A stretch of 64,000 nucleotides of DNA, taken from contig NZ_CYPW01000006.1 in assembly GCF_001458175.1 (NCBI RefSeq), forward strand, positions 323,337-387,336. The letters are read 5' to 3'. The notes below the pieces were generated by a model that was given only the letters and a program-made list of their open reading frames with translations, made no database searches and had not been told where the DNA came from. The DNA is from Shimia marina. Its GTDB lineage: Bacteria; Pseudomonadota; Alphaproteobacteria; Rhodobacterales; Rhodobacteraceae. The position numbers and the translations under genes were made by a program. Below are positions 1-7,430 of the stretch, piece by piece; within the stretch, counting starts at the first letter, position 1, and each line of letters opens with the position of its first letter.

Positions 1-444
1 CCCGCCCCAACAGAGCCCGCGCCAATCCTCAACCGCTTCACCACAGAGACCGCCAGCTTTGCGTTCTCCATGTCTGATGCCCTCCCACCTGCGGATACCA
101 GCCGCAGCCCCGCAGAGCGCCTGCTTAATCTCACAGGGGATGAGCCCGCGCGCCTCACCCGCCTGATCACACGGGCTCTTATGGTGCCCATGGCCGGGCT
201 GCTCGCACTCGCCGCCCTTGTGGTCGCGCCCCGCGGGGCACTGCGCATGATCTCCCTGCCGCTGGCCGCGCTCCTGATGCTCTGCGTTGATGTGGCCAGC
301 CGTGCCGCCATTACACCACTCTCTGCGAGCCTGTCCGCACCGCTGCTGATTGCACTGGCCTCTGTGCTCTATCTAGGTCCACCTCTGCTTGTGCTTGGCC
401 TGCGCGGCGAGGCGCTGATGACTCCAGACAGGTCCCGCACATGA
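1..444 (+). CDS. LptF/LptG-family permease, C-terminal part (5' end outside the window)
   Basis: The frame is open from base 1, so the gene starts upstream of the window. At least three hydrophobic segments are visible (starting near VPMAGLLALAALVV, then MISLPLAALLMLCV and LSAPLLIALASVLYL), preceded by a short polar stretch. This matches the end of YjgP/YjgQ permeases, where an amphipathic region is followed by three C-terminal helices. Such proteins form the membrane part of the Lpt ABC transporter that moves lipopolysaccharide out of the inner membrane. The stop overlaps the next start as ATGA, so the two are translationally coupled as an LptF-LptG-like pair. The setting beside a glycosyltransferase and a phosphatidyltransferase suggests a paralogue for another lipid. 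The family call rests on topology and the partner gene. Confidence 0.55.
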   Translation, partial: PAPTEPAPILNRFTTETASFAFSMSDALPPADTSRSPAERLLNLTGDEPARLTRLITRALMVPMAGLLALAALVVAPRGALRMISLPLAALLMLCVDVASRAAITPLSASLSAPLLIALASVLYLGPPLLVLGLRGEALMTPDRSRT

Positions 445-1586
445 TCTGGCGCAGCCATACGGGCCTCGCCGTGCGCACGATGATGCGCACGGATCTTTCC
501 GTGATCGCCTTCCTGATGTTCACGCTGCTGGTGGTGGCGCTCACCATTGACCTGGCCAAATGGCTGCCCTCTGTGCAAGCCCGCGCAGACACCACGCACA
601 CACCCTTCGCAAAAACGCTTCTCACCTATGTGAGCTACCGCAGCATCGACATTGTCACCCGCCTGCTGACCATGGCCTGTGTGGCGGGCGGTTTCGTCGC
701 CGCCTTGTTGCGCCATCAACGTCTGGAGGATGTGGTGCTGTCCGCCGCTGGCGCAGGCCCCTCGCTGCGCTTGGCCGCGGTCTTGCTGTCGGGCCTTTTG
801 CTCGGCACCATACAATGGGCCGGCGAAGCATGGCTGCGGCCCATTGCAGTGGCGGCGCAGGTACAGGAAAATCTCGGCGACTACGGACACCGCTATCACA
901 ACAGGGACACCGGCACACAATGGCTGGTACAGGAGGGCATCGCCCTGCACGGCACGCTCATCCGCGGCCCAGACATGCATCTCACCAATGTGAGGCTCTT
1001 TGGCGGCGTCGATACTCCAGAGCTGACCCACCTGCTCCATGCCGAGAGCCTGCACCCCGGCCCGCGCCCCGGCCTCTGGACCTTCACCAATGCTACCCTC
1101 TGGCATCTCAACAGCGATCGTCCCACAGAACAGCTTGCAACACTCACAACGCCGCTGCCCTTTGATGCCATGCGCCTGCGCTGGTTTGGCATTGATGCCT
1201 ATTACATGCCCACAGCTGTGGCCCGTCACATCGCCACGCAGCCTCATGCCCCCAATGCCTCGGATGCGGCAACAGCCGTGGCCGTGCGCCGTGCCGCGCC
1301 CGTCTTGCCGGGTATCTTTCTGCTTCTGGGTATCAGCCTTGCCAGCCTCGCCACAGGCCCCCGCCGCCTCTCTCCGTTTCGCCTGCTGGCCTTGGCCGCT
1401 GTGGCCTATCTCTGCGTTGTCTCCGTCAAAACCTTCTGGGCTCTGGGCATCCATGCCGTCCTGCCCCCGGCTGCCACCGCCACCTTGCCAGCCTTCTTTG
1501 CGCTCGCCGTGGCCACGCTCATACAGCTCCACCATGCGGGCAAACTGCGCGGCATCCTTCCCATCTCGCACAAGAGGCATCCATGA
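441..1586 (+). CDS. LptG/LptF-like (YjgP/YjgQ family) permease
   Basis: A protein of 381 residues, normal for LptF/LptG. Topology fits the family: a first helix near residues 20-40, two more near 62-90 and 105-125, a large soluble domain of about 150 residues (the periplasmic jellyroll in known structures), then three helices near 285-305, 315-335 and 345-365. In the family two such permeases pair with the LptB ATPase to extract lipid from the inner membrane toward the outer membrane. It overlaps both neighbours by 4 bp. The usual lptFG context (lptD, surA, pdxA) is absent, so I infer a paralogous exporter for the lipid made by the downstream genes. No ATPase for it lies in the window. Confidence 0.6.
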   Translation: MIWRSHTGLAVRTMMRTDLSVIAFLMFTLLVVALTIDLAKWLPSVQARADTTHTPFAKTLLTYVSYRSIDIVTRLLTMACVAGGFVAALLRHQRLEDVVLSAAGAGPSLRLAAVLLSGLLLGTIQWAGEAWLRPIAVAAQVQENLGDYGHRYHNRDTGTQWLVQEGIALHGTLIRGPDMHLTNVRLFGGVDTPELTHLLHAESLHPGPRPGLWTFTNATLWHLNSDRPTEQLATLTTPLPFDAMRLRWFGIDAYYMPTAVARHIATQPHAPNASDAATAVAVRRAAPVLPGIFLLLGISLASLATGPRRLSPFRLLALAAVAYLCVVSVKTFWALGIHAVLPPAATATLPAFFALAVATLIQLHHAGKLRGILPISHKRHP

Positions 1587-2719
1587 AAATCGTGCAAATC
1601 ACGCCCTACGCCATGGACCGCCCCGGCGGGGTGCAAAGCAATATCCGCGACCTGTCTGCATGGCTGCGCCAACAGGGCCACGAGGTCAAAATCATCGCCC
1701 CGCCCAGTACAGACCTGCCCGGTGAGATGCGCACAGTTGAGCCCGGCGTGATGACAGTGGGCACCGCGCGACCATTCTCCGTCCATGGCACGCAGTTTGA
1801 AATCAGCCACGCCACAGCGCGCAGCCGACGTGAAACGGTGACAGCCCTGCGAGACTGGGGCGCAGAGGTGGTGCATTTGCACACGCCCTGGACGCCGCTG
1901 ATGCCATGGCAGATCTGGCGCGCGCTCAAACTGCCCGCCATCGCCACATTCCATGCCACCCTGCCAACAGGCAGCGGATTTGATCCCCTCGCCGCCGCCC
2001 TGCGCCGCGTCGGGCATCACTTCAACCGTCATCTCCACCGCATTGTTGTCCCCTCCGAAGCGCCCTTCATGCAATGGAAGACCGCAGGGGCAGACCCGCT
2101 ACCTCTGATCCTGCCCCCGACAATTGACCTTGCGCCATGGCGCGCAGCCGCCGATGAGATCCGCAAGCCCGCCAACTTTCGCGCTGTCTACATGGGGCGG
2201 CTTGAGGCCCGCAAAGGCGTCTCTGTATTGCTCACGGCATGGCATAGGGTTCAGCACGCCCTGCCTCAGGCGCAGCTGATCATCGCAGGCACCGGCGAAG
2301 AAGAGGCGACCCTGCGCGCACAAGCACAGGATCTGGCGCTGGCAAATGTCACCTTCCAAGCGCCCCCCAGCCAAGCCGCCGCCAAAAGCCTCATCGCAGG
2401 GGCGCATGCCTTTGTCGCCCCTGCATTGCATGGGGAAAGCTTCGGCCTTGTGCTGATTGAAGCCATGGCGGCGGGCGCGGTGCCCGTTGCAGCCGCCAAC
2501 GATGGCTTCGCCACGGTTCTCACCGAGGCGGGCAAATCCCTGCTCTGCCCGCCGGGCGATGCCGTCGCTCTGTCCGAGACACTGCTGCACCTCGCCACAT
2601 CCCCGGCGCGCTACAACGCGGCCCGCGACTGGGCCAGATCCCATGCTGCCCGTTTTGACGTCACCACCGTTGGCCCGGCCTATGAAACCCTTTTGCAGGA
2701 GGCCCTCTTGCATGGCTGA
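1583..2719 (+). CDS. GT4 glycosyltransferase resembling PimA (phosphatidylinositol mannosyltransferase)
   Basis: A GT-B fold glycosyltransferase of 378 residues. The N-terminus has PGGVQSN at residues 14-20, the sugar/lipid-acceptor loop seen in PimA (GGVQSH). ATFHATLP, GRLEARKGVSVLL, AGTGEEEATLRAQA and GESFGLVLIEAMAAG (with the E-x7-E pair of retaining GT4 enzymes, near residues 283-291) follow in the order and spacing of actinobacterial PimA. Known members transfer a hexose from an NDP- or GDP-sugar to phosphatidylinositol at the cytosolic membrane face. ATGA overlaps the permease gene upstream. Acceptor and donor are inferred: the phospholipid is probably the product of the CDP-alcohol transferase two genes downstream. 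It could be a general GT4 glycolipid enzyme. Confidence 0.7.
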   Translation: MKIVQITPYAMDRPGGVQSNIRDLSAWLRQQGHEVKIIAPPSTDLPGEMRTVEPGVMTVGTARPFSVHGTQFEISHATARSRRETVTALRDWGAEVVHLHTPWTPLMPWQIWRALKLPAIATFHATLPTGSGFDPLAAALRRVGHHFNRHLHRIVVPSEAPFMQWKTAGADPLPLILPPTIDLAPWRAAADEIRKPANFRAVYMGRLEARKGVSVLLTAWHRVQHALPQAQLIIAGTGEEEATLRAQAQDLALANVTFQAPPSQAAAKSLIAGAHAFVAPALHGESFGLVLIEAMAAGAVPVAAANDGFATVLTEAGKSLLCPPGDAVALSETLLHLATSPARYNAARDWARSHAARFDVTTVGPAYETLLQEALLHG

Positions 2720-2814
2720 TCACAGCACAGCTCTTGCCAAAGCACAGACCACATGCCAGACCTTCAGAGCATTCATTTGCATATTTTTTAAGACCAGACT
2801 TGGGCATAAAGCCA

Positions 2815-4335
2815 TTGATTGAAGGCGATCTTGTCATCTCTGCCGACTTCGGCACCTCCGGCGTGAAAGTCGGCGTTGTGGACAGCTCCCTGACCATTCT
2901 GGCACGCGTCACCGCCGCCTATCCCCTCAATCTCGCCCCCGGCGGCATCGCCGAACAAAACCCGACAGACTGGTGGGAGGCGCTGGCACAGGCGCTGCAC
3001 GCGTTGCATCAGGAGCTTCCTGAGCTGAAATCCCGCGCCGCCGCATTGGTGTTTTCTTCCCAACTGCTCGGGCTGGTGTGCTGTGCCGAAGATGGCACAC
3101 CGCTGCGCCCCTGCCTGACATGGCTGGACAAACGCGCGGCCCCTTTGGGCAAAAAACTCGTGGGCGGCTTTCCCGAGATCCATGGGTATAACGCGCCGCG
3201 TCTGGCCCGCTGGCTGCGCATCGCCAATGGGGCGCCTGCCAAAAACGGCATGGACCCAACCGCCAAAATGCTCTGGTTCATGCAGCAGGAGCCCGACATC
3301 TACGCCAAGACCCGCTGGATGGTGGATGTCAAAGACTGGCTGGTGCATCGCGCCACCGGCACCATGACCACCTGCCCCGAAAGCGCCAATCTCACATGGG
3401 TGATGGACACGCGCCTTGGCCGCGAAGGCTGGTCTGAAACACTCTGCGCCCTCACCGGCATCAATCAGAGTAAACTGGCCCCGATCACACAGGCCGACAC
3501 GGTTGTGGGTCCGCTCACGCCGCAAGCCGCCACAGATCTTGGCCTGCGCGCCAATGTTCAGGTGCTGGCAGGCACATCAGATGCCATGGCCTCCACACTT
3601 GGCTCCGGCGAAGTGGCCGATGGGGCGCTGCATGTCTCTGTCGCCACCTCCGCATGGATCGCAGGTTTCTTTCCCAACCGCCGCCTCAGCGTCGCGCATT
3701 CCTACGCCACGGTCACCTCTGGCCTCAACTTCCGCCCGCTCCTGATCGCCAGTCAGGAAAACGCCGGCTCCGCACTGGATTGGGTGGCCGCAATCACCGG
3801 CGGCGGCGAACACCCCTATGCCGATATCGGCACACCACAGCCGGATGATCCGCTGTTTCTGCCCTGGCTCGCCGGCGAACGCGTGCCGGTGGACAATGAC
3901 CGCCTGCGGGGCACTTTTCATGGCCTCAGCCTGCATCACGACGCCGCCGCCCTGCGCCGCGCCGCCATCGAAGGCGTCGCGCTCAATCTGCGGTGGGCCA
4001 TGTCCAAAGTTGCGCGAGAGAAAGGCGCGCAAACTTCCGGGACGCTCTCCATCACCGGCGGTCTGGCCGCCAATCCTGCCTTTGCCCAAACCCTCTCAGA
4101 TGCTCTGGGACGCAACGTGCGCGTCTGCGCCGCCCGCCACGCAGGCATGCTGGGCACAGCCACCCTCGCCGCCCCACTCATGGGCTGGGCCGACAGCGTC
4201 ACAGGGGCCGCCGCCCGCCTCAAATCCCGCAGCTCTGCCACCTACACACCCGATCCTGAGCGCAGCGACGCGCTCACGCACCGCGCACACAGCCTCGACA
4301 AAATCCGCCGCCACACCATCCGCAGCTACACCTGA
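2815..4335 (+). CDS. FGGY-family carbohydrate (polyol) kinase
   Basis: Two-domain sugar kinase of about 506 residues. Seen: N-terminal phosphate loop ADFGTSGVKVG, CLTWLDKRA (substrate region with Asp/Arg), GTSDAMASTLGSG, and the C-terminal adenosine motif ITGGLAANPAFAQTLSDALG. The family phosphorylates xylulose, ribulose, glycerol or other polyols with ATP. Which one is not readable here. The start is uncertain: no in-frame ATG precedes the phosphate loop. TTG at 2815 puts the loop at the usual distance; TTG at 2734 would add 27 residues over an AT-rich stretch that looks more like spacer or promoter. Its place between a PimA-like transferase and a CDP-alcohol phosphatidyltransferase suggests it supplies the phosphorylated polyol that becomes the lipid headgroup. 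Confidence 0.72.
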   Translation: MIEGDLVISADFGTSGVKVGVVDSSLTILARVTAAYPLNLAPGGIAEQNPTDWWEALAQALHALHQELPELKSRAAALVFSSQLLGLVCCAEDGTPLRPCLTWLDKRAAPLGKKLVGGFPEIHGYNAPRLARWLRIANGAPAKNGMDPTAKMLWFMQQEPDIYAKTRWMVDVKDWLVHRATGTMTTCPESANLTWVMDTRLGREGWSETLCALTGINQSKLAPITQADTVVGPLTPQAATDLGLRANVQVLAGTSDAMASTLGSGEVADGALHVSVATSAWIAGFFPNRRLSVAHSYATVTSGLNFRPLLIASQENAGSALDWVAAITGGGEHPYADIGTPQPDDPLFLPWLAGERVPVDNDRLRGTFHGLSLHHDAAALRRAAIEGVALNLRWAMSKVAREKGAQTSGTLSITGGLAANPAFAQTLSDALGRNVRVCAARHAGMLGTATLAAPLMGWADSVTGAAARLKSRSSATYTPDPERSDALTHRAHSLDKIRRHTIRSYT

Positions 4336-4346
4336 AGGAGACCGCC

Positions 4347-4970
4347 ATGATTGATGGTCTGATGAAATCCACCATCGACCCGCTCTGGGAAGCCATGGCC
4401 ACCCCTCTGGTCAAGGCGCGCCTCACGCCCAATCAGGTCACTTTCATCGGGCTTGTGCTGATCATTCTGGTGTCCCTCGCCTATCTCTGGCACCAGTCCG
4501 CCGCGCTCTATGGGCTCACCCTCGCGCTGGCCTTTGTGTTTGACGCGCTGGACGGTGCCGTGGCGCGGCGGCGCAACATGTCCACCAAAGCGGGCGGCTA
4601 TTTCGATGCCATGGTGGACCGGTATCAAGAGCTGGTGGTGCTCGCCACGCTGGCCCATCTGCACGACGTCTGGCCTCTGGCACTGGCCTGTTTCTCAGGC
4701 TCTGTCATCACCTCTTACGCCAAGGCGCGCACGGCCATTGAGATGCCAATCTCCAACACCGACTGGCCCGATGTCTTCGAACGAATGGAGCGCATCATCT
4801 ATCTCTGTGTCCTGATGCTCGCCGCTGGCCTGCTGGGCACAGGGCTGATCGCTTGGGGCTTGGCGCTCTTTGCTGTGCTGACCCATGCCACCGCCCTGCA
4901 AAGGGCGCGCCGCGCCACACAGATGCTGCGCGCTCAGGATGCGGCTGATGAAGAGATCACAGACCCGTAA
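4347..4970 (+). CDS. CDP-alcohol phosphatidyltransferase (phosphatidyl-polyol-phosphate synthase candidate)
   Basis: Membrane protein of 207 residues with the complete family signature D-x2-D-G-x2-A-R-x8-G-x3-D-x3-D: Asp66, Asp69, Gly70, Ala73, Arg74, Gly83, Asp87, Asp91. Hydrophobic helices flank it (about 30-48, 52-66, 95-125, 138-172). The family condenses CDP-diacylglycerol with an alcohol or alcohol phosphate, releasing CMP; the four Asp bind the metals. ATG follows AAGGAG at good spacing and lies 11 bases after the kinase stop. With a PimA-like transferase and a kinase in the same operon, a phosphatidylinositol-phosphate-like product is more likely than phosphatidylglycerol phosphate, but this is inference. 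Its 3' end overlaps the convergent gene by 37 bases. Confidence 0.85.
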   Translation: MIDGLMKSTIDPLWEAMATPLVKARLTPNQVTFIGLVLIILVSLAYLWHQSAALYGLTLALAFVFDALDGAVARRRNMSTKAGGYFDAMVDRYQELVVLATLAHLHDVWPLALACFSGSVITSYAKARTAIEMPISNTDWPDVFERMERIIYLCVLMLAAGLLGTGLIAWGLALFAVLTHATALQRARRATQMLRAQDAADEEITDP

Positions 4971-5728
4971 GCCCCGCGACTGCCGCGCCAGGCGCACCAC
5001 ATGTCCGGCACATAACTTGTGACGTAAAACAGAAATCCACTTAACAGCAGCAACTCGGTGCTGGCATAGGCCGCATAGACCTCATAGCGATAGGCCTCCG
5101 GCGCATATCCCTTGCCCAGAAACAGGCACAGATACACCACACCAAGAACAATCGGCACCCAGACATAGCCCCGCCGCCAGCGCCCAAAACGCGGTGACCA
5201 CACCCGCCCCACCACGGTCCCCTCCGGTCCCATGGTGGCATAGCTGCGCGACAAAACCTCTCCGGTCACAATGGCAAAGGCCTGAGAAAAGAAAAACAGA
5301 TAGCTCCCCGCCATATGCTGATCACGGAACTCCGGGAAACGATACTGGCTCAACACCACCATGCCGACAGACGCCAGCGCCTGCAGGGCCACCAGCAACC
5401 ATGTCAGACCGACAACACGCGGGCTTGCGCGCCCATGCCGTTGCAGTTCCCGCAAGGCCGGAAGACTGACGAGCACAACGCCGACAAACAGCGCCACAGC
5501 CGACAGCAGCAACCAAATGGCAAAAGGCTCTCCAATGCGCGGATCCGCTATCGACTCGCTGATAGTGCGCGCGCGCGTCGCACTGAGGTCAGGATAAAAT
5601 GCGGCAAACTTCCAGCGCGCGGTATAAATCTGGACATTTACTGTCAGCGTCACAAACAGCGTGGCGATCAGCGCTATCAACATCGCCCACCCTGTGCCTC
5701 GGCTGGGAGCCCATTGCCTCTGCGTCAT
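4934..5728 (-). CDS. Frag1/DRAM/Sfk1-like integral membrane protein (tentative)
   Basis: A 264-residue membrane protein with about six hydrophobic helices (near 14-34, 70-92, 104-126, 142-158, 188-206, 218-242). After helix 1 comes a loop with ISESIADPRIGEPF, then RDQHMAGSYLFFFSQA, and the last helix ends in FYVTSYVPD. This pattern resembles Frag1/DRAM/Sfk1 proteins (first extracytoplasmic loop with an IS-x-n-P motif, a D-x-H segment, a final aromatic-Asp motif), a family tied in eukaryotes to phosphoinositide or GPI-lipid handling. Molecular function in bacteria is unknown to me. ATG lies 4 bases after the ABC transporter stop, so the two are one operon. If the family call is wrong it remains a polytopic protein of unknown role. 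Confidence 0.4.
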   Translation of the reverse strand: MTQRQWAPSRGTGWAMLIALIATLFVTLTVNVQIYTARWKFAAFYPDLSATRARTISESIADPRIGEPFAIWLLLSAVALFVGVVLVSLPALRELQRHGRASPRVVGLTWLLVALQALASVGMVVLSQYRFPEFRDQHMAGSYLFFFSQAFAIVTGEVLSRSYATMGPEGTVVGRVWSPRFGRWRRGYVWVPIVLGVVYLCLFLGKGYAPEAYRYEVYAAYASTELLLLSGFLFYVTSYVPDMWCAWRGSRGAYGSVISSSAAS

Positions 5729-5732
5729 GATG

Positions 5733-7430
5733 TCAAATCTCTTTGGTCAAATACTCATCTGACACGATGCGCCCTGCGTCCATCTTGATCAAGCGGTCAC
5801 ACTTCCCAAATTGGTGATCATCATGGGTCACCGCCAAAACGAGCCGCCCGGATGCGGATAATTCCGGCATCAACACATCATAGAAAAACGCCCGGTTCGC
5901 CGGATCCTGATCCGCAGCAAACTCATCCAAAACAATGATCGGCCGCTGCTCGGCCAATGCCACCGCCAGCGCCAGCCGACGGCTTTGCCCCGCAGACAAG
6001 CTTGTGTTGGAAAACTTGTCCCCTAACAGCTGCACACGTTTGGCCAACCCCAACTGCGCAATACGCGCTTGAAGCGCCTCCAACTCGCTTTCAGGGAGGC
6101 CATAGGCATGATCAAACAGATGAAACTGAGCAAAGACCGCAGAAAACAACTCACGGTATCCAGCAGTTGTCGCATCCGTCAACGCCACGCCGTCCAAAGT
6201 GATCTCGCCCTTGGCCGGGTGCCGCATCCCCGTGATCAAAGACAAAAGCGTGGTCTTGCCAGAGCCGTTGCCTCCACAGATGAACACCGTCTCCCCCGGA
6301 TGAAACGTCAGATCCACAGGCCCCAGATGAAAGGGCACCACGCCCTCACGCGCCTCCCCCACATCGGCTGTCACCTGACGCAGGGCAATTTCAGAGAACG
6401 CTGCGACGGTCTGCTGTGGTGCGGCCAGCGCAAGGCTTTGTGCCGCCATAAGATCCGCTTCAACCTGTTTGATTTTAACATAGCTGCTCTCGGCTTTGCT
6501 CAGCATCGGCAAGGCCGCGAAAACCATCTCGGTCGGGCCATTGACCAAAAACACGATGGTCAGCACCTGAAACATCGCCACGGCCCCGCCAGATTGTAGA
6601 TAGGGCAGGGCAATCACCACAAAGCACAACAACAGCGCCACCGCCGATTGCGCGCCTGCGGTGCTGCCCGCGAACAACCGCTCTGAGCGCATTCTGCGAA
6701 ACACCTGTGTTTCAATCACACCCTGTGTCTCTGCCTCCAGAGCCGCCCGGCGACTGGCCCGCAGCCGCAGTTCCTTCCAGCCTCCGAGCATATCGGTAAC
6801 CCGATCACAATAAAGCGCAAAGGAATCCGCCGCCCGATAGGCCCACCGGCGCGCCGGCCCATCCAGGAACGCAAAGGAAATCCCCCCAATGATCAGCGCG
6901 CCAAGCGCAGCCAGCCCGGCAATCCAGCTCACATAAAACAGATAAGGGATGGCAAAGAGCAAAACCACACAGGCCCCGATGCCCTCCACCAGAAACACCA
7001 CCGCCTGTGCCAGCTGGGTGACCTCAGCGGTCATGGCCCCATAGACTTTTCCGTGGCGCCCGCTGATCAGGAAATCAATATTGGCCCGCAGCAACAATGT
7101 TGAAAGGCGATTGCGCATCTGTGCTTCGATCCGGGTGATCAGCGTAAAGGCACGCACCTTCTGCAGATAGCCAAAGCCAACCATGCTCACCACGCAAAAC
7201 AGCAGCATCACCACCGGCCAGCCGAAGCCTTCGCCATGGCGGCGCGCGGTTTCATTGATCGCAAAAATCATACCTGCGCGGCTGAGCCCAGACAGCAAGG
7301 TGTAAAACACAATGCGATCTTTCACACCGCCCCCGGCCCCCAGAAGGAAGCGCACCACTTCAAGACGCAAACGCAGGGTATTTTTTGGGGCCACCTCTGG
7401 CGACGTCGTCATTTCAAAATTCACGCTCAC
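5733..7430 (-). CDS. Cyclic-peptide-type ABC exporter, fused membrane and ATPase domains
   Basis: 565 residues: about six helices in the first 330, then an ATPase domain. Walker A is GGNGSGKTT, the signature is SLSAGQSRRLALA (LSAGQ instead of LSGGQ), and Walker B runs into DEFAADQDP, the diagnostic block of the cyclic peptide transporter group (PvdE, SyrD; usually DEWAADQDP), with VTHDDHQF as H-loop. Known members export siderophore precursors or lipopeptides as homodimers. No non-ribosomal peptide synthetase lies in the window, so the cargo is unknown. The start used is GTG; an ATG at 7412 is possible. The Frag1-like gene follows after 4 bases and may be its partner. Confidence 0.82.
   Translation of the reverse strand: MSVNFEMTTSPEVAPKNTLRLRLEVVRFLLGAGGGVKDRIVFYTLLSGLSRAGMIFAINETARRHGEGFGWPVVMLLFCVVSMVGFGYLQKVRAFTLITRIEAQMRNRLSTLLLRANIDFLISGRHGKVYGAMTAEVTQLAQAVVFLVEGIGACVVLLFAIPYLFYVSWIAGLAALGALIIGGISFAFLDGPARRWAYRAADSFALYCDRVTDMLGGWKELRLRASRRAALEAETQGVIETQVFRRMRSERLFAGSTAGAQSAVALLLCFVVIALPYLQSGGAVAMFQVLTIVFLVNGPTEMVFAALPMLSKAESSYVKIKQVEADLMAAQSLALAAPQQTVAAFSEIALRQVTADVGEAREGVVPFHLGPVDLTFHPGETVFICGGNGSGKTTLLSLITGMRHPAKGEITLDGVALTDATTAGYRELFSAVFAQFHLFDHAYGLPESELEALQARIAQLGLAKRVQLLGDKFSNTSLSAGQSRRLALAVALAEQRPIIVLDEFAADQDPANRAFFYDVLMPELSASGRLVLAVTHDDHQFGKCDRLIKMDAGRIVSDEYLTKEI

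Follow-up and report, generated by a model that had tools for sequence, protein, structure and literature searches.

In the marine alphaproteobacterium Shimia marina, a run of ten genes on one strand apparently directs the synthesis of a glycosylated inositol-phospho-sphingolipid and its export by a dedicated LptF/LptG pair, a reading drawn from gene content and homology to which we assign a probability of about 0.6. The second half of the run opens the window (the whole stretch of DNA analysed, 64,000 nucleotides, G000:C6:323337-387336 on the + strand of a genome of 4.0 Mb in 45 contigs), and roughly a further 5.4 kb of the run lies before base 1, in a stretch here called L004 (G000:C6:310000-329900; window position = L004 position - 13337). 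The upstream genes encode, in this order, a serine palmitoyltransferase (SPT)-like enzyme of the α-oxoamine synthase (AOS) family, a DUF4833 protein, an inositol-3-phosphate synthase, a TSC10-like short-chain reductase (SDR), a CdsA-like enzyme and an LptF-type permease cut by the window start; the window adds an LptG-type permease, a PimA-like glycosyltransferase of family 4 (GT4), an FGGY-family kinase and a cytidine diphosphate (CDP)-alcohol phosphotransferase resembling phosphatidylinositol phosphate (PIP) synthases. Because the run comprises an SPT-like enzyme, a TSC10-like reductase and a CdsA paralogue of its own, a sphingoid anchor is indicated, and the anchor of the predicted lipid is probably sphingoid.

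An earlier interpretation, made from the window alone (the sequence-only reading), had proposed a glycolipid like the phosphatidylinositol mannosides (PIM), exported by LptF/LptG. The glycerophospholipid part of that proposal is unsupported, since the three genes just named point to a sphingoid anchor; these anchor-side genes lie upstream of the window, outside the sequence on which it was based. Its other predictions fared better: the five gene types that it named for positions 1-4970 (LptF, LptG, GT4, FGGY kinase and CDP-alcohol phosphotransferase) are all recognised by Pfam or NCBIfam models, and the inositol-phosphate synthase for which it advised searching upstream is present. A PgpA-type phosphatase gene is absent from this operon; one is found elsewhere in the genome.

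Organization and Conservation of the Operon

The genes are closely packed, with 4-base overlaps at DUF4833-synthase, SDR-CdsA, LptF-LptG and LptG-GT4; the remaining intergenic gaps that were measured span 4 to 40 bases. The 4-base coupling described in the sequence-only reading thus holds at the last two of these junctions and fails at GT4-FGGY (at least 14 bases) and at FGGY-transferase (a gap of 11). The proteins of the operon are nearest to those of four Shimia loci (L089-L092, one of them labelled Rhodobacteraceae only), with 85% identity for the SPT-like enzyme and 89-90% for the synthase.

Among 295 sampled genomes of the family, DUF4833 occurs in 11 and the synthase in 12, namely the same 11 and one more (G291), which agrees with the earlier remark that such a pathway is unusual in the Rhodobacteraceae; the co-occurrence of the two genes has a Fisher's exact p of 4e-19, uncorrected for ancestry. 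In G291 the synthase occurs without the operon, in a neighbourhood that by eye is unrelated. In the ten relatives carrying the operon, DUF4833, synthase, CdsA, LptF and LptG follow the same order as in S. marina; the SPT-like gene is found in ten of the 11 operon genomes, in place in eight (once split over two contigs) and elsewhere in two, and the transferase is found in all 11.

In a class sample of 385 genomes, DUF4833 scored over the cut-off in two genomes of the same genus, with one frame containing stops below it. A scan of the contigs of named genomes extended the family to Stappia, Aestuariivirga and the Bacteroidetes, giving 75 loci in all (among them Shimia, Pseudooceanicola, Salinihabitans, Stappia, Aestuariivirga and Chitinophagaceae), each viewed to about 10 kb on either side of DUF4833; 68 of the 75 DUF4833 frames were kept, and 49 of those were taken further. 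The core set of DUF4833, synthase, CdsA, LptF and LptG is present in 38 of the 75 loci and is colinear on one strand in every one of them, accompanied by SPT in 35 and by the SDR in 36. The other 37 loci include 14 with DUF4833 only and 15 with DUF4833 and a homologue of the PIP synthase (PIPS). The FGGY and transferase genes are absent from some loci, for which the 10 kb limit of the view may be the cause.

Predicted Genes of the Lipid Anchor

The best match of the AOS enzyme in the PDB is a serine palmitoyltransferase (5.2e-64), closely followed by AONS/KBL-type enzymes (1.9e-60), and a cysteate fatty-acyltransferase is also found among the matches. It carries GT[LF]SKS..AS.GGF and DEAHS-type stretches, which we take to be SPT-type active-site motifs; both are common to the SPTs of E. 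coli BL21 and Chitinophaga and are lacking in the KBL, BioF and ALAS rows of the alignment. The operon enzymes group in a single clade of a 68-row tree, separate from the KBL and ALAS of the same genome, both of which pass their own model cut-offs. On the basis of tree and motifs, assignment of the operon enzyme to KBL, BioF or ALAS is rejected, a verdict tempered by the long branches that meet in this tree.

The SDR finds its best PDB match in the 3-ketodihydrosphingosine reductase TSC10 (1.3e-22; next match 1.8e-18). The CdsA-like protein, the second of its kind in the genome, retains the KR..KD..GG..D..D signature and has QGG in 14 of 14 rows at the place where the canonical CdsA of the genome, encoded on contig C25, has GHGG.

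Predicted Genes of the Headgroup

The headgroup route foreseen by the sequence-only reading is supported, as synthase, PIP-synthase-like transferase and PimA-like GT4 all belong to the operon. The closest solved relative of the synthase is an inositol-3-phosphate synthase (PDB 1gr0, 1.3e-105); the protein scores over the cut-off of PF01658 (7.4e-35) and matches TIGR03450 at 2.1e-113, yet with 379 of the 638 bits set for that model. For the transferase the top NCBIfam model is the archaetidylinositol phosphate synthase (AIPS) model NF040950 (1.1e-35, below cut-off), NF045883 (4.1e-21) also remains below its cut-off and that of NF052561 is likewise unreached. No substitution of its four catalytic aspartates (66, 69, 87 and 91) is seen in any of 38 distinct rows, the S. 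marina row counted among them, a set replacing 49 rows that had contained duplicate genes; 14 of 15 checked positions are invariant in the same rows, the remaining one being K or R, and the S. marina protein is identical to the PgsA1 chain of PDB 6h53 at all 15. The transferase is proposed to attach inositol phosphate to a CDP-lipid. The GT4 is matched best in the PDB by PimA, at 1.8e-39 and 2.1e-39 for two sequences, with the next match at 1.3e-12; we propose that it transfers a hexose to the inositol of the headgroup.

The FGGY kinase is xylulokinase-like, with the model below its cut-off, and its best PDB matches are a gluconate kinase and xylulokinases. Five candidate starts between 2734 and 2878, together with a family match starting from residue 34, make its true start uncertain. 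The kinase had been supposed to make the polyol phosphate of the headgroup, a role made less likely by the inositol-3-phosphate synthase gene within the operon itself; inositol salvage and the supply of a headgroup polyol phosphate are both candidate functions. The PgpA-type gene missing from the S. marina operon is found, on the opposite strand, between CdsA and LptF in 12 Stappiaceae-type loci (confirmed by Pfam for L111).

Putative Export Genes and DUF4833

The expectation of a second LptF/LptG-type pair is borne out: the operon permeases match PF03739, and the canonical pair of the genome lies on contig C27. The 3' part of LptF in the window has no Pfam match when taken alone, and its upstream part (L004:12641-13222) matches PF03739 at 2.5e-15; a run of 113 N (L004:13225-13337) lies inside the gene and ends directly before window base 1, so that this LptF may or may not be intact, and the frames measured in ten relatives have 367-405 aa. 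Both proteins miss the equivalog cut-offs of the lipopolysaccharide (LPS)-type permeases (TIGR04407/TIGR04408), LptG with 55.8 of 240 and the partial N-terminal part of LptF with 61.6 of 230 bits. In a tree of 22 rows, from which the S. marina LptF was left out owing to the N run, the operon LptF proteins of five relatives and the operon LptG proteins (own and five relatives) each make up one clade together with the permeases of locus L119 (described below), away from the canonical proteins. The glutamate of the coupling helix (E. coli LptG 88 / LptF 84), a residue that contacts LptB, is conserved in all 12 operon rows.

DUF4833 has an N-terminal stretch that by eye resembles a signal peptide, and is predicted to be beta-rich (model pLDDT 90). 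Downstream of the operon, and convergent with it, lie genes for a Frag1/DRAM/Sfk1-family membrane protein and an exporter-type ATP-binding cassette (ABC) transporter, in which transmembrane and nucleotide-binding domains are fused; both accompany the operon in relatives too, where the transporter likewise adjoins it. The transporter scores 297.0 bits against TIGR01194, above the cut-off of 286.2, and is a candidate flippase for the lipid, as judged from its family and position. The Frag1-family protein reaches 29.8 bits against a PF10277 cut-off of 30.3, and 15 of 16 aligned homologues, its own row included, match this family at E <= 0.01 (best 1.5e-14); a role as lipid-remodelling or lipid-handling partner is proposed. 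In three operon genomes in which the FGGY kinase and the transferase lie elsewhere (G282, G126 and G152), a homologue of the ABC exporter adjoins both genes in all three (42-54% identity), Frag1 lies beside them in two, and Stealth-type and desaturase genes are found there in two.

Proposed Pathway and Alternative Readings

The chemical steps, each of which we infer from gene order, family membership and co-occurrence, would run as follows. The SPT-like enzyme would condense serine with an acyl thioester, the TSC10-like SDR would reduce the 3-ketosphingoid, and an N-acyltransferase encoded elsewhere would make ceramide, while the synthase would convert glucose-6-phosphate into inositol phosphate; the CdsA-like enzyme would activate a lipid phosphate to a CDP-lipid, to which the transferase would add inositol phosphate, and a PgpA-type phosphatase (encoded within the operon region in Stappiaceae, and elsewhere in this genome) would take off the extra phosphate before the GT4 puts a hexose on the inositol. 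Once flipped by the ABC exporter, the lipid would be drawn out in the direction of the outer membrane by the operon LptF/LptG and an LptB, with the secreted-looking DUF4833 protein perhaps assisting. The substrate of the transferase could be a CDP-sphingolipid directly, or CDP-diacylglycerol with a later exchange of the anchor, perhaps by Frag1.

A more specific version, which we advance tentatively and consider possible rather than probable, sees here a bacterial counterpart of fungal mannosyl-inositol-phosphorylceramide reached by different chemistry: the CdsA paralogue would make a CDP-sphingolipid to which the PIP-synthase-type enzyme adds inositol phosphate directly (or the Frag1 neighbour would swap diacylglycerol for ceramide), the PimA-like enzyme would add mannose, and the lipid would leave by its own route of ABC flippase and LptF/LptG. 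Distant eukaryotic relatives of Frag1 swap diacylglycerol for ceramide on glycosylphosphatidylinositol anchors.

Several observations weigh against a glycosylated inositol-phospho-sphingolipid exported in this way. The AOS enzyme reaches no SPT cut-off (NF047600, 276.5 of 640 bits; NF047599, 272 of 500; NF047603, 203 of 670; the Chitinophaga SPT passes NF047600, in a model-confirmed comparison row) and its top NCBIfam model is BioF; in the 68-row tree the operon enzymes are a separate deep clade outside the known SPTs, although the deeper branching order is unsure because several long branches meet there. Neither a YghO query nor a four-row ceramide synthase profile turned up a convincing ceramide synthase of a known type in the 11 operon genomes (the profile gave a single match, at E 0.608, and none better; the YghO query was matched weakly and in part in nine of the 11, the best case being 1.9e-4 over 107 residues in S. 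marina itself), so that the N-acylation enzyme is among the missing pieces. The DAGK_cat lipid kinase family has 0 matches in the S. marina genome in a search that detected 13 of 14 controls, and a ceramide-1-phosphate route would therefore have to run without a Caulobacter-type kinase. The transferase scores under both the PIPS and the AIPS cut-offs; the L119 LptF has Asp rather than Glu in the coupling helix; Frag1 has no clear fold match (best Foldseek E 0.098, and nothing better than E 0.2 with a profile against PDB sequences), nor has DUF4833 (best Foldseek E 4.3e-3, VIA Z 4.2). Finally, G246 has neither SPT nor SDR in its operon, and a search of that genome at E 1e-15 gave no AOS match; either the sphingoid anchor is not universal or the G246 genome is incomplete. 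Some candidates for individual steps were set aside: the region around the weak YghO match of S. marina (G000:C40) was read and holds no ceramide synthase candidate, a CpgB-type ceramide kinase is lacking in this genome, and DUF4833 could not be matched to an LptC-like or other known fold despite its pLDDT of 90. An inositol phosphorylceramide synthase of BT_1522 or AUR1 type is not among the Pfam matches of the operon, the genome not having been searched for one.

The main rival is a PIM-like glycerolipid, in which CDP-diacylglycerol and inositol phosphate would give PIP and then phosphatidylinositol (PI), mannosylated by the GT4 and exported by LptF/LptG, the sphingoid genes making a separate lipid. 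The likeness of the headgroup trio to mycobacterial Ino1, PgsA1 and PimA is in its favour, as are the G246 operon and four Hyphomicrobiales-type loci that carry GT4, FGGY, PIPS and DUF4833 with no SPT within about 10 kb on each side; moreover, PIP-diacylglycerol and PI-diacylglycerol are reported to come before PI-dihydroceramide in Bacteroides (PMC9246714). We nevertheless hold it to be unlikely, as SPT-like and TSC10-like genes share the co-directed run in 35 and 36 of the 38 core loci, respectively, and a dedicated CdsA paralogue would be superfluous in a genome that has a canonical CdsA. Nor would the product be a sphingolipid in the strict sense if the AOS enzyme used alanine, glycine or cysteate and gave a deoxy-sphingoid or sulfonolipid-like anchor; its distinct deep clade, the BioF model on top with no cut-off passed and the cysteate fatty-acyltransferase among its PDB matches would fit this, whereas the serine at the (A/G)SR site, the SKS..AS.GGF stretch common to SPTs, the SPT as best PDB match and the TSC10-like partner reductase make it quite improbable. 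Least probable is a mixed locus, with LptF/LptG serving the export of an ordinary glycan or a variant of LPS and the lipid genes being passengers without any relation to it: the PF03739 family is known from LPS, and Stealth-type and NTP-transferase genes occur among the neighbours in relatives, but the gene order is fixed in all 38 core loci, the four junctions DUF4833-synthase, SDR-CdsA, LptF-LptG and LptG-GT4 show 4-base overlaps, and the operon permeases form lineages of their own beside a canonical pair encoded elsewhere.

Coordinates and Variation among Relatives

Table 1: Features of the operon, its downstream neighbours and variable stretches in relatives.
Feature	Position	Strand	Family match
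SPT-like AOS enzyme	L004:7908-9134	+	
DUF4833 protein	L004:9140-9817	+	
Inositol-3-phosphate synthase	L004:9814-10923	+	
TSC10-like SDR	L004:10928-11725	+	
CdsA-like enzyme, second in genome	L004:11722-12600	+	
LptF-type permease	5' part L004:12641-13224, 113 N, then 3' part window 1..444	+	PF03739
LptG-type permease	window 441..1586	+	PF03739 1.2e-16
PimA-like GT4	window 1583..2719	+	PF00534 1.1e-28
FGGY-family polyol/sugar kinase, start uncertain	window 2734..4335	+	PF00370 2.4e-34, PF02782
PIP-synthase-like CDP-alcohol phosphotransferase	window 4347..4970	+	PF01066 5.6e-15
Frag1/DRAM/Sfk1-family membrane protein, convergent with operon	window 4934..5728	-	PF10277
Exporter-type ABC transporter (fusion)	window 5733..7430	-	TIGR01194
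ACP-KAS / PlsC-like stretches near ABC exporter	L027:18043-19499, L164:43-2283, L025:2-1874		
Operon inserts in relatives	L023:12717-14893, L028:2865-5086, L024:10455-14018, L111:16770-20442		

In the two genomes with neither SPT nor SDR in the operon, a pair of acyl carrier protein (ACP) and ketoacyl-ACP synthase (KAS) genes and a divergent PlsC-like acyltransferase gene lie at most about 3 kb from the ABC exporter; by family, these are candidates for acyl supply or for the N-acyltransferase. G095, with an operon lacking SPT and SDR, carries on another contig an AOS gene (42% identical) with an adjacent SDR gene (37%); these (L062:7700-10558, G095:C164) stand directly downstream of a gene whose product has a phosphopantetheine (ACP) domain at its end and by eye is polyketide synthase-like, so that the sphingoid base is perhaps fed by a polyketide synthase. 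The operons of other relatives are interrupted by inserts, several of them on the opposite strand, encoding a MobA-like nucleoside triphosphate (NTP) transferase, a second CDP-alcohol phosphotransferase, a Stealth-type protein and a fatty-acid desaturase; these genes, which are absent from the S. marina operon, perhaps serve decorations of headgroup and anchor.

Two clusters of a second architecture of the same theme were met in metagenome-assembled genomes (MAG), L119:9902-20453 (Rhodobacteraceae) and L123:6805-11268 (Natronohydrobacter), in both of which DUF4833 is clustered with a YghO-type ceramide synthase, ACP and KAS. L119 holds these four genes within 11 kb along with an inositol-phosphate synthase gene, a pair of PF03739 permease genes and one for an LptB-like ATPase; the ceramide synthase matches E. 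coli YghO at E 8e-67, and the ATPase reaches 238.4 bits against a cut-off of 240. Chitinophaga (L137) has three consecutive genes, for an SPT, a YghO-type protein and a member of the epimerase family, at a distance of about 4 kb from DUF4833. In the Sediminibacterium locus L146, the synthase comes first, followed by PgpA, GtrA, one more gene, the PIP synthase and finally DUF4833. The PIP synthases of L146 and L143 score 376.3 and 373.8, respectively, over the cut-off of 350 of the NCBIfam BT_1523 model, and in both loci a second DUF4833-like frame, seen by eye, lies several kb before the first (L143:1208-1774, L146:1093-1683).

Comparison with Known Systems

Among the literature matches listed there is no report of such an operon, nor of inositol sphingolipids in roseobacters, and no paper was matched to DUF4833. 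If the proposed reading is true, inositol sphingolipids would be added to the roseobacters and an uncharacterised family, DUF4833, would gain a pathway; as genes for synthesis, glycosylation and export are gathered in one compact operon of cultured marine genera (Shimia, Stappia), each step is open to single gene deletions.

The mycobacterial PIM pathway consists of Ino1, PgsA1 and PimA, and with it the operon has in common the closest solved relatives of its synthase and GT4 as well as the 15 PgsA1 positions of its transferase; it differs by adding sphingoid genes and Lpt permeases. In fungi and plants, inositol phosphorylceramides (the mannosylated MIPC and the glycosylated GIPC) are made by AUR1-type transfer from PI. 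These are the predicted product class of the Shimia operon, among whose Pfam matches there is no AUR1-type gene, and the relation would be one of convergence. In E. coli BL21, spt adjoins genes annotated lptG and lptF, just as the SPT-like gene is linked to the operon pair, but these spt-linked proteins cluster with the E. coli canonical ones and not with the operon pair, so that orthology between the two pairs is unsupported.

In Bacteroides thetaiotaomicron, PI-dihydroceramide is made by the BT_1522-1526 cluster, with an inositol-phosphate synthase, a PIP synthase and a PgpA-type phosphatase, and an SPT-made sphingolipid (PMC9246714); the L143 and L146 clusters, where DUF4833 stands beside a BT_1523-type PIP synthase, resemble it, whereas the Shimia operon also contains SPT-like, TSC10-like, CdsA-like and PimA-like genes and LptF/LptG. 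In Caulobacter crescentus, the SPT region CC_1152-1168, with LptC2, LptF2 and LptG2, makes ceramide-phosphoglycerate, and the second LptF/LptG pair near SPT, a feature common to both organisms, has been proposed there to carry phosphosphingolipids to the outer membrane; the same source stated in 2024 that the transit of bacterial sphingolipids from inner to outer membrane was unknown, and the word "inositol" has 0 occurrences in its main text (PMC11324152). Compared with Caulobacter, the Shimia genome is without a DAGK_cat kinase and yielded no YghO-type ceramide synthase, and its operon has an SDR in place of the epimerase-type reductase and inositol genes in place of phosphoglycerate genes. 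By its predicted functions, the operon joins inositol sphingolipids of the Bacteroides kind and sphingolipid-linked LptF2/LptG2 of the Caulobacter kind with glycosylation of the PimA type.

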